A DNA stretch of 64,000 nucleotides from Hellea sp. (lineage in GTDB: Bacteria; Pseudomonadota; Alphaproteobacteria; Caulobacterales; Maricaulaceae), in NCBI GenBank assembly GCA_028224375.1, contig JAOIVW010000013.1:1-64000 (forward strand), written 5' to 3'. This document shows positions 12,992 to 17,021 of the stretch, piece after piece. The notes beneath the pieces are model-generated. The model did no database searches, was not told the DNA's origin, and saw only the letters and a program-made list of their open reading frames with translations. The position numbers and the translations under genes are program-made. How positions within the stretch are numbered: position 1 is the stretch's first letter; the number at the start of each line of letters is the position of its first letter.

Positions 12992-13825
12992 CTAACTATT
13001 TGATAAAAGTAAATTGGTGATGCCCGTACTTCCAAGACCGCCATTTAAAATGGATATCGCGGCAAAGCCAGGGGTTGACGCCGAAGGTCCCAGCTCGATT
13101 TGCTCCTGAAGCAAGTAACGCCGGATTGTATTTTCGATAACGTCAGGGTCGTTAAAAACATCAACCGTAGTGCCGCCATAAAATTCCTTAGCTTTATCAG
13201 CGAGAATCTCTTTCTGGAAATCTAGATCAAGCTGCGAAAATCCATCAGGCAAATTAAAAGCGCTTTCTAAGACTGTGCGGATAGGCGTAGAGGCCATCGC
13301 TTTGAACCAGCCAGCATTTTCGGACAGGCCTTGGCTCGCAAAATCTGCTATTACACGTTTGAAATTAAGCGCCAACCGCATTGAGTTGTCTACATCACCA
13401 AGTTCTTCCTCAAAACTTTCGGTTTGATATTTCAGAACAATATCAGCGGCCGTGTCCGCCGTTATATTAAGCTCTCCATTGTCTCCAACGACAAATGTAT
13501 TGGCAAGATCAAGATAATCGGAATTATTCAGACGCACGGCAAAGCTACTGTTGTCTTCAGTGCCTTCTTCAAGAATCTTACGAACAAAAGCCCCTTTGTC
13601 GATTTCTTCGCCCAAGCTAAAGGCCCCAAGGGCAACGGTTAAAAGACGCCGATCCGACATCAGGTCATCAAGCGTTTCCACGGAGCCGATATTCTCCGAA
13701 AAATAATCTACATCTCTTTGAATATCCGGTGACCGGTTGAAAATTTCTGTTTGGGAAGCAAGGGATGACTCTAGAAAGTTCCAACCGGCCAAACCGGAGG
13801 CTGGTATGATGGGCGAGAAGGGCAC
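12992..13825 (-). CDS. DUF1217-family flagellar-associated protein
   Basis: The 277-residue product matches DUF1217 proteins, which occur in alphaproteobacterial flagellar clusters, often near flaF/flbT. Recognisable pieces are SPDIQRDVDYFSENIGSVETLDDLMSDRRLLTVALGAFSLGEEIDKGAFVRKILEEG and the later VIENTIRRYLLQEQIELG. It has no signal peptide or membrane segment and is acidic and largely helical. The gene begins 6 bases after flbT on the same strand, so it is the distal gene of the flagellin-flaF-flbT set. Its biochemical role is unknown. An exported or structural accessory protein is plausible. Confidence 0.75.
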   Translation of the reverse strand: MPFSPIIPASGLAGWNFLESSLASQTEIFNRSPDIQRDVDYFSENIGSVETLDDLMSDRRLLTVALGAFSLGEEIDKGAFVRKILEEGTEDNSSFAVRLNNSDYLDLANTFVVGDNGELNITADTAADIVLKYQTESFEEELGDVDNSMRLALNFKRVIADFASQGLSENAGWFKAMASTPIRTVLESAFNLPDGFSQLDLDFQKEILADKAKEFYGGTTVDVFNDPDVIENTIRRYLLQEQIELGPSASTPGFAAISILNGGLGSTGITNLLLSNS

Positions 13826-13831
13826 GTATGC

Positions 13832-14275
13832 CTAGCTCGCCATCGCAGGCAGCATTTCGTCAGAGGAAAATTTAGGGACAGGCTGTGCCAATAAATCTTC
13901 TTCGATTCGTAAAAGCGGTTTTAGAGCGCACAAGACTGAATAATAGCGGGCATTAGCGGCCGCAGCTTGGGCTTTGTTAATATTTTTTATTAGGGGAGTA
14001 TCTGCGAATACAGTTGCTAGAGCCTCCAAGCCTTTACGAATATCAGCATCCGTTTCAATCGCGCCAACATCACCTGAGAGAATAATCTGAGCCGCATAAT
14101 AGACGCGGCGAACAGGTGTGTTAACTTCGCTAGGATGAATAACATCACTCATGCGCAGAACATTAACGTCATCATCTCCAACACATATTTGTCCACGCTT
14201 AGGTCCATTGCTGAGCAATGCACCATTGACTAGGAATTTCTCATTGGGTTTGAGACTAAGGACAAGACCGGCCAT
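13832..14275 (-). CDS. flbT: Flagellin translation regulator FlbT
   Basis: FlbT is the alphaproteobacterial RNA-level repressor of flagellin synthesis; in Caulobacter it acts on the flagellin mRNA 5' leader. The 147-residue protein shows the family pattern LSLKPNEKFLVNGALLSNGPKRGQICVGDDDVNVLRMSDVIHPSEVNTPVRRVYYAAQIILSGD. It starts 2 bases after flaF and lies directly downstream of the flagellin gene. The long hairpin-rich leader of that gene is therefore a natural candidate target. Length is normal. Confidence 0.93.
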   Translation of the reverse strand: MAGLVLSLKPNEKFLVNGALLSNGPKRGQICVGDDDVNVLRMSDVIHPSEVNTPVRRVYYAAQIILSGDVGAIETDADIRKGLEALATVFADTPLIKNINKAQAAAANARYYSVLCALKPLLRIEEDLLAQPVPKFSSDEMLPAMAS

Positions 14276-14277
14276 AA

Positions 14278-14703
14278 TTATGCTACCTCTGTCAGGCGTG
14301 AAGTTTCATGTGTATCTTTAGCCGCCTGCTCGAGAGCAGCACTTTGGCGCAGTCCCTCAATAATGGACTGATTGATATCTATAAGGACTTGGTGGTCCGC
14401 TTTTCCGCTTAAGACTTGAAGCGTATGTATCTGTGTAAATTTAGCCAAGGACATGAGGCTTGATTTTAGGGGAAGCGGTAAAGGATTTTCAGGATTTACG
14501 AGATCAATAAACAGTATTTTCCAAAGCTTTGCGTTGTCAGTAAGCGCTTCGGCAAGTTTAGTCGCCCCCCCTATCTCTTCTTTGTCGACACGGCGCAAAG
14601 CTGATGTCACAGAAATGAAGACGTTTAATTCAATAGTTTTATCAGAATTTATTTCGCGCTGGACTGTTTTATATCCATGTATGGCTTGGTTACTATTTGT
14701 CAT
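14278..14703 (-). CDS. flaF: Flagellin regulator/chaperone FlaF
   Basis: FlaF is the counterpart of FlbT. In Caulobacter it promotes flagellin synthesis and secretion and has been compared functionally with FliW/FliS. The 141-residue helical protein has the family features AIHGYKTVQREINSDKTIELNVFISVTSALRRV, LWKILFIDLVNPENPLPLPLKSSLMSLAKFT and a final basic-to-acidic helix. It lies between flagellin (upstream, 86 bases) and flbT (2 bases downstream). No membrane segment or signal peptide is seen. Confidence 0.92.
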   Translation of the reverse strand: MTNSNQAIHGYKTVQREINSDKTIELNVFISVTSALRRVDKEEIGGATKLAEALTDNAKLWKILFIDLVNPENPLPLPLKSSLMSLAKFTQIHTLQVLSGKADHQVLIDINQSIIEGLRQSAALEQAAKDTHETSRLTEVA

Positions 14704-14789
14704 TGGAAATCTTACCCTTTTGTCCTATTTTAGGCGTTAGTCTGACCGAAGCGGCGTACCGCTCCGGTCTTAAGTCATTTAAGCTGTTT

Positions 14790-15995
14790 CTATCTGAAGA
14801 GTGATAGAAGCTGCTGTGGACCTGAGTTCGCAATTGACAGGGCTTGGACGCCGAGCTGCTGCTGAACCTGCAGGGACTGCAGACGGGCAGAAGCTTCTTC
14901 CAGATCGGAATCTGTCAGTGCGCCGATACCTGTTGTCAGGGCATCACTTAGCGTTGAAACAAACTCAACCTGGTTCTCAATGCGCGTTTGCTTGGAACCG
15001 AAGTTAGCAGCGGCATCAATAGCTGACTGCAAGAAGCCTTCGATATTTGAAAGCGCTGCAGCTGCACCTTCGGTTGATGTGACATCAATCGTCTCGAGAC
15101 CTGCAAGTGCACCGGCCTGCTTACCACCTTCAAAGACAGTTGCGTTGTCTACGACGGCATCATCACCACCGGAGACGTTGTTTACGGTCAGAACGCCAGC
15201 GGCAGCTGAGAAGGTGAAACCCTCAACGCCTTCGCCGTCATTCAAAGCCGCTGCAGCTGCAACCAGACCTGATGCGACATCTTCATTCGTGTCACCGGCG
15301 GTAGAGATATAAGAGATGGTCTCGCCGTTGACGTCGAATGATGTCGTTGTACCTTCGACAACACCATTTGCGCCGGCGGCAATAGTAACTGTCGTGCTGG
15401 CACCTTCGTCAACATCCGCGCCTGACGCCGCGATAGTCGCCGCACCGCCGTTACCGGCAGTCAGAGTATCTGTACCCAAAACTGCAGCATCCGTCGTCAG
15501 ATTTTCTTTTTGTACGTTAATTTGTGACGCCGTGACGGTTCCATCAGCTGCACGGTCAAGTGAAGACAAGACGTTGATGCTACCGGCTTCGTTTAAGAGG
15601 TTCGCACCGTTGAACTGAGCCGCGCCAACAACGGATCCGATTTGAGCGGTTAACTCAGAAATATCTGTTTGGATTTTGTCGCGATCAACGTTTTCTTCCT
15701 GAGCGGAGACAATAAGACTCTTCATATCTTGCAGAAGGTCTGTGACTTGTTCTGACGCAGCGCGTGCAACGCCAACAGTCGCTGAACCGAGATTCAAACT
15801 GTCTGAGATCTGATCGAAACTCTCTACATCTGTCGACATGACAGTAGAGATAGCCCAAATCGCGGCGTTATCTTTTGCAGAGTTAACTTTTTTACCTGTT
15901 GAAATCTCGCTCTGAACCATTTCAAGATTGCTGTTGATACCGCGGAGTGTATCGAGCGCCACCATGGCACTGTTATTTGTAATAATACTAGACAT
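14790..15995 (-). CDS. Flagellin
   Basis: Flagellin is the filament subunit, exported through the flagellar channel. The 401-residue protein has the conserved N-terminal D0/D1 (SSIITNNSAMVALDTLRGINSNLEMVQSEISTGKKVNSAKDNAAIWAIS), a Thr/Ala/Gly-rich variable centre (about 170-280), and the conserved C-terminal D1/D0 ending SLQVQQQLGVQALSIANSGPQQLLSLFR. Codon choice is visibly more GC-rich than in neighbouring genes, as for a highly expressed gene. A 205-base leader with three GGA-containing elements precedes the ATG. It is followed by flaF and flbT. Only one flagellin is in this window; others may exist elsewhere. Confidence 0.96.
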   Translation of the reverse strand: MSSIITNNSAMVALDTLRGINSNLEMVQSEISTGKKVNSAKDNAAIWAISTVMSTDVESFDQISDSLNLGSATVGVARAASEQVTDLLQDMKSLIVSAQEENVDRDKIQTDISELTAQIGSVVGAAQFNGANLLNEAGSINVLSSLDRAADGTVTASQINVQKENLTTDAAVLGTDTLTAGNGGAATIAASGADVDEGASTTVTIAAGANGVVEGTTTSFDVNGETISYISTAGDTNEDVASGLVAAAAALNDGEGVEGFTFSAAAGVLTVNNVSGGDDAVVDNATVFEGGKQAGALAGLETIDVTSTEGAAAALSNIEGFLQSAIDAAANFGSKQTRIENQVEFVSTLSDALTTGIGALTDSDLEEASARLQSLQVQQQLGVQALSIANSGPQQLLSLFR

Positions 15996-16162
15996 AGGAT
16001 TTTTCCTGTTGTGCGCTTATGCGCTCTGAAAATTATGAAGTTGCAGTCACTTCAAAATAATCAAACTCACCATTGAATTTGATCACCTAAGTCATCCTGA
16101 CATTTATGCCCGGTGTCGTTCTTTCGACGTTTACCTGGCAAAGCACAACTCTCCTGAGTTGT
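15996..16162 (-). promoter_or_regulatory. Flagellin mRNA leader with three GGA-loop elements
   Basis: Reading the minus strand towards the flagellin ATG there are three elements. First is a 7-bp hairpin ACAACTC-AGGA-GAGTTGT at 16145-16162 with AGGA in the loop. Second is GTCA-GGA-TGAC at 16091-16101 with GGA as the whole loop. Third is the Shine-Dalgarno AGGA itself, which can pair as AGGA-AAAA-TCCT (15996-16007) immediately before the ATG. GGA in hairpin loops plus one at the ribosome site is the classic CsrA/RsmA arrangement. In alphaproteobacteria FlbT is the alternative binder. Function is inferred. Confidence 0.5.
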
Positions 16163-16185
16163 ATGGTTTAGTTATACACCAAATA

Positions 16186-16200
16186 ATAACATAATCTTAA
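16186..16200 (-). promoter_or_regulatory. CtrA-like box upstream of flagellin
   Basis: The minus strand reads TTAA-GATTATG-TTAT, one mismatch from TTAA-N7-TTAA, about 190 bases before the flagellin ATG and directly after the end of the flgN-like gene. It could place the flagellin promoter just upstream of the hairpin-rich leader. Inferred only. Confidence 0.4.
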
Positions 16201-16201
16201 A

Positions 16202-16588
16202 TTACACCCGCTTTTCTGAAAAAACCTGATTCTCGGATAAAAATAATTTTGTGCCGGCTCTATTATAGGCCCCAACTTTAGCTTCTTGGTATTGTATTGC
16301 TTGCAAGCGCTCACGGGCGGACCGCAAACCATTTAACACGCTTTTTAACATAAGGCCGTTTTCATCGGCCAAGCGTTTCAACTTTTCGATTTGCGGTGCT
16401 ATTTGACTAAAATTACTTCGTGTCTGCAAAGTCGCCGTTAAAACTTCAAGTTCCGCCATGCGTTCAGTTTTTATGCGTACAATATCTTCAAGGCCCTGAA
16501 CACGCCCGGAGCTAAGTAATTTAGTTTCCTGCTTTAATATATTAATCAATTCAGAAATCTTGACGTTACAGTTTACCAAAGTCGACAT
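16202..16588 (-). CDS. FlgN-like flagellar export chaperone
   Basis: FlgN is the cytoplasmic chaperone of the hook-filament junction proteins FlgK and FlgL. This 128-residue helical protein (KISELINILKQETKLLSSGRVQGLEDIVRIKTERMAELEVL ... LKRLADENGLMLKSVLNGLRSARERLQAIQYQEAKVGAYNRAGTK) has the length, coiled-coil pattern and late GAYNRAGT-type segment of alphaproteobacterial FlgN-like proteins. It overlaps the 3' end of flgJ by 23 bases, so the two are co-translated. flgK and flgL occur at 28-30 kb. FlgN sequences diverge strongly, so the call is moderate. Confidence 0.65.
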   Translation of the reverse strand: MSTLVNCNVKISELINILKQETKLLSSGRVQGLEDIVRIKTERMAELEVLTATLQTRSNFSQIAPQIEKLKRLADENGLMLKSVLNGLRSARERLQAIQYQEAKVGAYNRAGTKLFLSENQVFSEKRV

Positions 16589-16943
16589 TCACAATCTCTC
16601 CGTTGTTTTCAAAATCATTTTGCTCATGCGTAAGACCGCTGAGTTTAACCATTTGCCCATAAAAATTTTCGGCCAAACCAAATCCACCTTTTTCGGCAAT
16701 TTGGTCGGCGAAACTCTCAATATAAAAGCTTGTGAAAGCCGCCACTTCTTCGCCGCCCCCTGCCATCAGCGCTTTATCTAATCCACTAAACGTAAGCATC
16801 TGTGCAATATAGGCCGCTTCAAAATTCTGTGCCGACTTACGCAGCTCAGCCTCAATGACCTTTTGATCTGCCTCGCCTGCAACATCGGTCGCATCCGGTA
16901 AATCGGAGTAAGGCAGTTGTAGCGGGTTAATTTGCGAAAACAT
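16566..16943 (-). CDS. flgJ: Stand-alone rod-binding protein (FlgJ N-terminal type)
   Basis: This 125-residue protein is only the rod-binding domain of FlgJ, with no muramidase domain, as is normal for alphaproteobacteria. The diagnostic part is AQNFEAAYIAQMLTFSGLDKALMAGGGEEVAAFTSFYIESFADQIAEKGGFGLAENFYGQMVKL. It acts in the periplasm as a rod-assembly scaffold. The gene is divergent from fliK and its 3' end overlaps the flgN-like gene. The lytic enzyme for peptidoglycan penetration must be encoded elsewhere. Confidence 0.9.
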   Translation of the reverse strand: MFSQINPLQLPYSDLPDATDVAGEADQKVIEAELRKSAQNFEAAYIAQMLTFSGLDKALMAGGGEEVAAFTSFYIESFADQIAEKGGFGLAENFYGQMVKLSGLTHEQNDFENNGEIVNVDFGKL

Positions 16944-16960
16944 GTAAATCCCAAGTTTTT

Positions 16961-16977
16961 TTAAGTATATTTTTTAA
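16961..16977. promoter_or_regulatory. TTAA-N9-TTAAC motif in flgJ/fliK intergenic region
   Basis: TTAA-GTATATTTT-TTAAC lies in the 78-base gap between flgJ and fliK. The same spacing (TTAA-N9-TTAAC) occurs before flgE at 26701. The spacing differs from the N7 CtrA consensus, so it may be another regulator's site or two half-sites. Confidence 0.3.
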
Positions 16978-17021
16978 CACGTAAAGGATTAGTAAATACT
17001 TTTTACTTATTTTAAATTGTA

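Follow-up and report, generated by a model that had tools for sequence, protein, structure and literature searches.

A flagellin leader of Hellea sp. with CsrA-type hairpin sites and FlbT as its probable reader

We have found that the flagellin leader of a Hellea sp. genome carries two small hairpins, H1 and H3, that recur with compensatory base changes in its relatives, together with a third GGA element at the Shine-Dalgarno (SD) site. The leader is probably a multi-site translational control element of the CsrA type that is read by FlbT, through a diverged CsrA domain, instead of by CsrA.

Background

An interaction of FlbT with the flagellin 5'UTR was reported in Caulobacter crescentus in 2000 (Anderson and Gober 2000, as cited in PMC3930126). 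Secondary accounts describe FlbT as binding flagellin 5'UTRs and repressing translation until the hook is complete (PMC3930126), and by those accounts the way in which FlbT recognises flagellin mRNA has been a question ever since. The flagellin FljJ acts as the partner of FlbT in this repression until FljJ itself is secreted (PMC7591256). Dugar et al. raised the possibility that FlbT/FlaF is a system analogous to CsrA/FliW (PMC4894983). The window analyzed here is a stretch of 64,000 nucleotides (GenBank assembly GCA_028224375.1, contig JAOIVW010000013.1, positions 1 to 64,000 of the forward strand).

Elements of the flagellin leader

The regulated gene encodes a flagellin of 401 amino acids (14790..15995, minus strand, ATG at 15995) with matches to PF00669 (E 2e-28) and PF00700. 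It stands at the head of a gene row that continues with flaF (14278..14703, minus; PF07309, E 1e-25), flbT (13832..14275, minus; PF07378, E 1.7e-31, 109 bits, full length 1-125/125) and a DUF1217 gene. A single PF00669 match was found in the genome (G000), so that this is the only flagellin found there.

The 242-nt leader folds with a minimum free energy of -66.9 kcal/mol, compared to a mean of -49.1 in 200 dinucleotide shuffles, none of which was as good (z -4.06). All of its elements lie on the minus strand. H1 (ACAACTC-AGGA-GAGTTGT, 16162-16145) is evident from both sequence and fold, has its AGGA loop at 16155-16152 and extends to 8 bp of stem if one includes the flanking U and G. H3 (GTC-AGGAT-GAC, GTCAGGATGAC, 16101-16091) was recognized from sequence; its loop and closing pair read CAGGAUG, and it can be drawn with 3 bp and an AGGAU pentaloop or with 4 bp and a GGA triloop. 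The SD sequence AGGA (16007-16004) can pair with TCCT (15999-15996) in a possible 4-bp hairpin directly before the ATG (15996..16007), as judged by sequence and fold. These three GGA elements had been claimed in the initial annotation of this DNA, and all of them are present on the minus strand as described. That inventory overlooked four further hairpins, however. H2 (TGCC-GGT...GTCG-AAAGAA-CGAC-ACC-GGCA, 16140-16107) was predicted by folding, and in the folded leaders of relatives a hairpin is frequent between H1 and H3, although its sequence is unlike that of H2 in the window. H4 (GATCAAATTC-AATGGT-GAGTTTGAT, about 16084-16058) was also predicted by folding; its AATGGT loop occurs in the nearest relatives as well, and an A-ATGG-T loop was counted in 7 leaders against 0.28 expected from shuffles. 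H5 (GAAGT-GACTGCA-ACTTC, 16053-16037) is known from the fold only, and H6 (GCGC-ATAA-GCGC, 16024-16013) from the fold and from a similar hairpin at the same place in several relatives.

The layout corresponds to that of a CsrA-type target, with at least two loop sites (CAGGAG in H1 and CAGGAUG in H3) and one site near the SD (AGGA). Compared with the ANGGAN hexaloop, the loops of H1 and H3 lack one or two bases. The two hairpins are spaced 54 nt apart (GGA to GGA), inside the range of 10-63 nt that can separate a pair of sites bridged by CsrA (PMC7652899). An Rfam scan of the leader returned only chance matches, with no family that fits, and the covariance model of flg-Rhizobiales RNA (RF01736) gave 0 matches in 13500-17000 at E values up to 5.

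Conservation of the hairpins

Named relatives put the window genome in the Caulobacterales, close to Robiginitomaculum and Algimonas, and both H1 and H3 recur in the flagellin leaders of these relatives. Each hairpin was tested alone; H2 could not be aligned across relatives with MAFFT. For H1, 94% of the cells in the alignment of 14 leaders are paired and four of the five pairs have changed on both sides, with a covariation score of 0.556 versus 0.354 in shuffles (reached in 0/500). For H3, 93% of the cells in 26 leaders are paired and 14 cells carry a two-sided change, and again 0/500 shuffles were as high. Sliding the partner strand weakened the signal of both hairpins. Covarying stems, the check proposed at the outset, are thus found at both sites.

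Within both hairpins the loops are better kept than the stems. The H1 loop is AGGA or AAGA and the H3 loop is AGGAU/C, AGAAN or AAGAU, so that the consensus of the kept loops is C-A[AG][AG]A(N)-G, made up of A[AG]GA in H1 and A[AG][AG]AN with a C-G closing pair in H3. GGA is therefore common but not invariant, because the AAGA and AGAA variants occur, and the expectation of kept loops holds for ARRA(N) but not for strict GGA. The third element is weaker in this respect: the pairing of AGGA with TCCT amounts to 3-4 bp, and AGGAAAAACCT-ATG is kept mainly in the nearest relatives. The commonest form of H3, CAGGA(U/C)G, matches the CsrB repeat CAGGA(U/A/C)G, which has been described as a CsrA site in E. 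coli (PMC7652899). The hexaloop AAGGAU, found in three relatives, also occurs in the RsmZ hairpin that was examined together with RsmN (PMC3791407). One locus (L095) has two tandem flagellin genes, the second of which has a leader with an H3-like hairpin (ATCAGGATGAT) and no clear H1.

Across the class, C-AGRA(N)-G hairpins were counted in 26 of 68 flagellin leaders that adjoin flbT in many alphaproteobacterial families, versus 1.8 expected in shuffles; the motif was partly derived from the leaders counted, which makes these numbers not wholly independent, but the contrast with shuffles and with other genes is still large. Leaders of other genes at the same loci had the hairpin in 24 of 439 cases (Fisher 2e-12). 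The remaining 42 of the 68 flagellin leaders are without it under this strict definition. Leaders of the Caulobacter type have AGAA(N) loops, one of them frequently right at the SD (CCAGAATGGAAGGA).

CsrA, FliW and FlbT across genomes

The initial annotation had suggested that CsrA may be encoded elsewhere in the genome. The search for csrA was negative, with 0 matches in the genome itself (an assembly that is 89% complete) and 0/150 in genomes sampled from its order (149 of them at least 90% complete); no FliW was found in the genome either. The comparison was extended to 80 flagellated Alphaproteobacteria drawn from many families, in which CsrA occurs in 31 of 40 genomes without FlbT (its absence was rechecked) and in none of 40 with FlbT (Fisher 4e-14, a value that ignores kinship). 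Of the 31 genomes with CsrA, 30 also have FliW, which was found in 0 genomes without CsrA. No diverged FlbT or CsrA genes were found beside the flagellins of FlbT-less genomes, where FliW is found instead. FlbT was found in 0/9 sampled genomes of the same genus (G001-G009), though the window genome has a flagellar gene cluster; FlbT may have been lost in the genus or acquired by the window genome.

The frequency of C-closed hairpins follows the presence of a candidate reader. They occur in 21/31 leaders of CsrA genomes, frequently with an ANGUA loop that lies at the SD, and in 26/68 and 29/36 FlbT leaders, versus 0/9 where neither protein is present (Fisher 0.0003 against the CsrA group and 0.025 against the class-wide FlbT group, with a small n of 9 and kinship ignored). 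The flavor of the loops differs, with AGRA(N) in FlbT genomes and ANGUA at the SD in CsrA genomes.

Likeness of FlbT to CsrA

FlbT consists of an N-terminal CsrA-like domain (residues about 3-45) and C-terminal helices, with E12 and R41 invariant among the aligned FlbT sequences. In profile comparisons the N-terminus matched alphaproteobacterial CsrA with a probability of 77% (E 2.1e-5, 40 columns) and all CsrA combined with a probability of 58% (E 1e-4). None of 200 column-permuted versions of the combined CsrA profile reached the real score (top 20.9 versus 24.3), and the reversed profile stayed below 1%. In a comparison of 34 real families drawn from the same loci, FlbT and CsrA each ranked first for the other (28-30 versus at most 17, the next below 3%). 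The FlbT/CsrA alignment is collinear along all five CsrA strands (LVLSLKPNEKFLVNG / LYLTRKVGESVVIND; NVLRMSD / SVLRREI) and places Leu4 and Arg44 of CsrA on Leu6 and the invariant Arg41 of FlbT. Leu4 and Arg44 are critical for RNA binding by CsrA (PMC7652899), Arg44 being described as essential (PMC7652899, PMC3791407). Arg6 of CsrA strand 1 is missing from FlbT, which has Leu8 there.

The match depends on the CsrA sequences used. A shallow CsrA alignment gave no profile signal against FlbT, nor did gammaproteobacterial CsrA alone against the FlbT profile, and the signal appeared once alphaproteobacterial CsrA was added. The Pfam CsrA model PF02599 had 0 matches among 25 FlbT sequences at E values up to 10, so that FlbT is not classed here as a CsrA protein. 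A sequence search of FlbT against the PDB gave no match. Foldseek returned no CsrA match for either the full FlbT model or its N-terminus, from monomer models with low confidence at the N-terminus, in which a strand-swapped dimer is perhaps invisible; the N-terminal model had no meaningful match of any other kind. The AlphaFold monomer model of FlbT (pLDDT 84.5) has strands only at 13-16, 19-23 and 30-32, such that strands 2-4 are formed and strands 1 and 5 are unpaired. Strands 1 and 5 of opposing CsrA monomers lie side by side, and a monomer model of a like-built FlbT would consequently show them unpaired. The predicted arrangement fits a CsrA-like dimer, which is suggestive only.

The C-terminal helices (residues 54-130) gave weak Foldseek matches to helical bundles. 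One of these was the flagellin chaperone FliS, a match that would suit a flagellin-sensing role but was rejected as not significant (E 0.44).

Further candidate sites

Hairpins of the same kind were seen before other genes. The flgG leader (window 21203-21161, minus) has two CAGGAUG hairpins, CGGAC-AGGAT-GTCCG before the start codon and GTTC-AGGAT-GAAT at it. The one at the start codon is common to close relatives, and the upstream one was seen only here and, as GGGAC-AAGAC-GTCCC, at locus L302; flgG is a possible second target of FlbT. Just before the likely flgC start (ATGGAACATAAT), the leader (window 11062-11042, minus) has the SD in the loop of AAATGC-AGGAG-GCGTTT, with GTC-AGAAT-GAT slightly upstream. 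At locus L116, the flg-Rhizobiales motif covers the flgF start; its loops are of the GGGA type and its SD reads GGGGAG, and this start might be another FlbT target. An intergenic stretch of the window genome (L117:1501-1630, minus; G000:C1:204134-204263) scored 37 bits to flg-Rhizobiales RNA, below the cut-off. It holds three hairpins with UUGGGAGA, AGAGA and AGGGAAG loops, has no sensible downstream gene and had no DNA-similarity match in 32 other genomes, mostly relatives. It could be a CsrB-like decoy RNA.

Discussion

FlbT had been named at the outset as a protein that may read the hairpins. Exclusion of CsrA, co-occurrence with the hairpins and the FlbT-CsrA profile match all point indirectly to FlbT, at the level of sequence comparison. 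We infer that H1 and H3 are the FlbT sites, that FlbT acts as a CsrA-like dimer and that events in this organism follow the order set out here. The N-terminal 45 residues of FlbT would bind small C-G-closed hairpins with A[AG][AG]A(N) loops, and H1 and H3 would serve as two high-affinity sites that recruit an FlbT dimer. The dimer would also occupy the AGGA/TCCT SD site or stabilize it in its closed form, and ribosomes would be blocked. The C-terminal helices of FlbT may sense unsecreted flagellin. Since a single flagellin gene was found in this genome, flagellin itself would be the partner of FlbT. Once the hook is finished and flagellin is exported, repression would end. FlbT, with FlaF, would thereby replace the CsrA-FliW pair and would have taken over the hairpins of the flagellin leader.

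We lean towards the view that FlbT is a CsrA-superfamily protein in which an RNA-reading CsrA domain is fused to a flagellin-sensing helical domain, and that it displaced CsrA-FliW in much of the Alphaproteobacteria and kept the hairpins while its loop preference drifted from GGA to ARRA(N). FlbT may instead read the hairpins and be unrelated to CsrA; the two families would then have converged on one RNA layout, and their profile similarity would stem from short beta-strand patterns that resemble each other by chance. The Foldseek result, a likeness that disappears unless the profile includes alphaproteobacterial CsrA, and the earlier description of FlbT/FlaF as an analogous system (PMC4894983) all favor this view. 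We consider it rather unlikely given that the match is reciprocal best by a wide margin, runs along five collinear strands and pairs the positions of Arg44 and Leu4.

A third factor (another RNA-binding protein, an RNase or a small RNA) could read the hairpins while FlbT contacts the leader in another way. Older work reports an association of FlbT with the leader, and a review calls the recognized site and mechanism unresolved (PMC4347634), which leaves room for such a factor. A shared third factor does not predict the absence of hairpins from all nine genomes that have neither CsrA nor FlbT, however, and we judge this explanation improbable.

Stable 5' hairpins commonly protect mRNA, and the leader is AT-rich with many hairpins. 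That these only stabilize the message or expose the SD, with no specific protein reader, is nevertheless very improbable, as loops kept better than stems are needless for plain stabilization. A CsrA missed in the 89%-complete assembly, which the exact match of H3 to the CsrB repeat might suggest, is hardly credible against its absence from 150/150 sampled genomes of the order (149 at least 90% complete) and a genome without FliW.

Reading of the leader by FlbT can be compared with several known systems. The initial annotation likened the leader to that of hag in Bacillus subtilis. The analogy holds for the layout, a flagellin leader with an SD site and an upstream hairpin site, and would extend to flagellin translation that is tied to secretion (PMC7652899), but it does not cover the reader or the exact loop; the window genome has FlbT and FlaF with no CsrA or FliW, and the kept loops are ARRA(N). 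Regulation by FlbT in C. crescentus is alike in protein family, in the kind of target and in order (Anderson and Gober 2000, via PMC3930126), although the secondary accounts mention neither a hairpin-loop site nor a link to CsrA, and the loops there are AGAA(N) whereas the window leader has AGGA(U). The flg-Rhizobiales RNA (RF01736) is also an alphaproteobacterial flagellar leader with GGGA-loop hairpins and a G-rich SD, but the inspected L116 hit lies at the flgF start and not at flagellin, and the model does not match the window leader. The decoy RNAs CsrB and RsmZ share the loops CAGGA(U/A/C)G or AAGGAU with H3 but are separate small RNAs, whereas H3 is part of an mRNA leader. Pseudomonas aeruginosa RsmN (PMC3791407) is a diverged CsrA relative, as FlbT would be, with a rearranged fold and the essential arginine retained; it binds ANGGA, whereas FlbT has an extra helical domain and presumably another loop preference.

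Conclusions

By the secondary accounts, the binding of FlbT to flagellin 5'UTRs in Caulobacter is already known. For the hairpin element, the mutual exclusion of CsrA and FlbT and the proposed relationship of the two proteins, we found no earlier report in the literature searched, which covered few subscription-journal papers and preprints, such that prior reports are possible. This work names a concrete, kept RNA element and a protein surface (R41 and strand 1) for recognition by FlbT, and may explain the lack of CsrA and FliW in those flagellated Alphaproteobacteria that have FlbT. If true, it would provide a clear example in which a target is kept while its RNA regulator is exchanged, would widen the CsrA superfamily and would open a route to predicting other FlbT targets.
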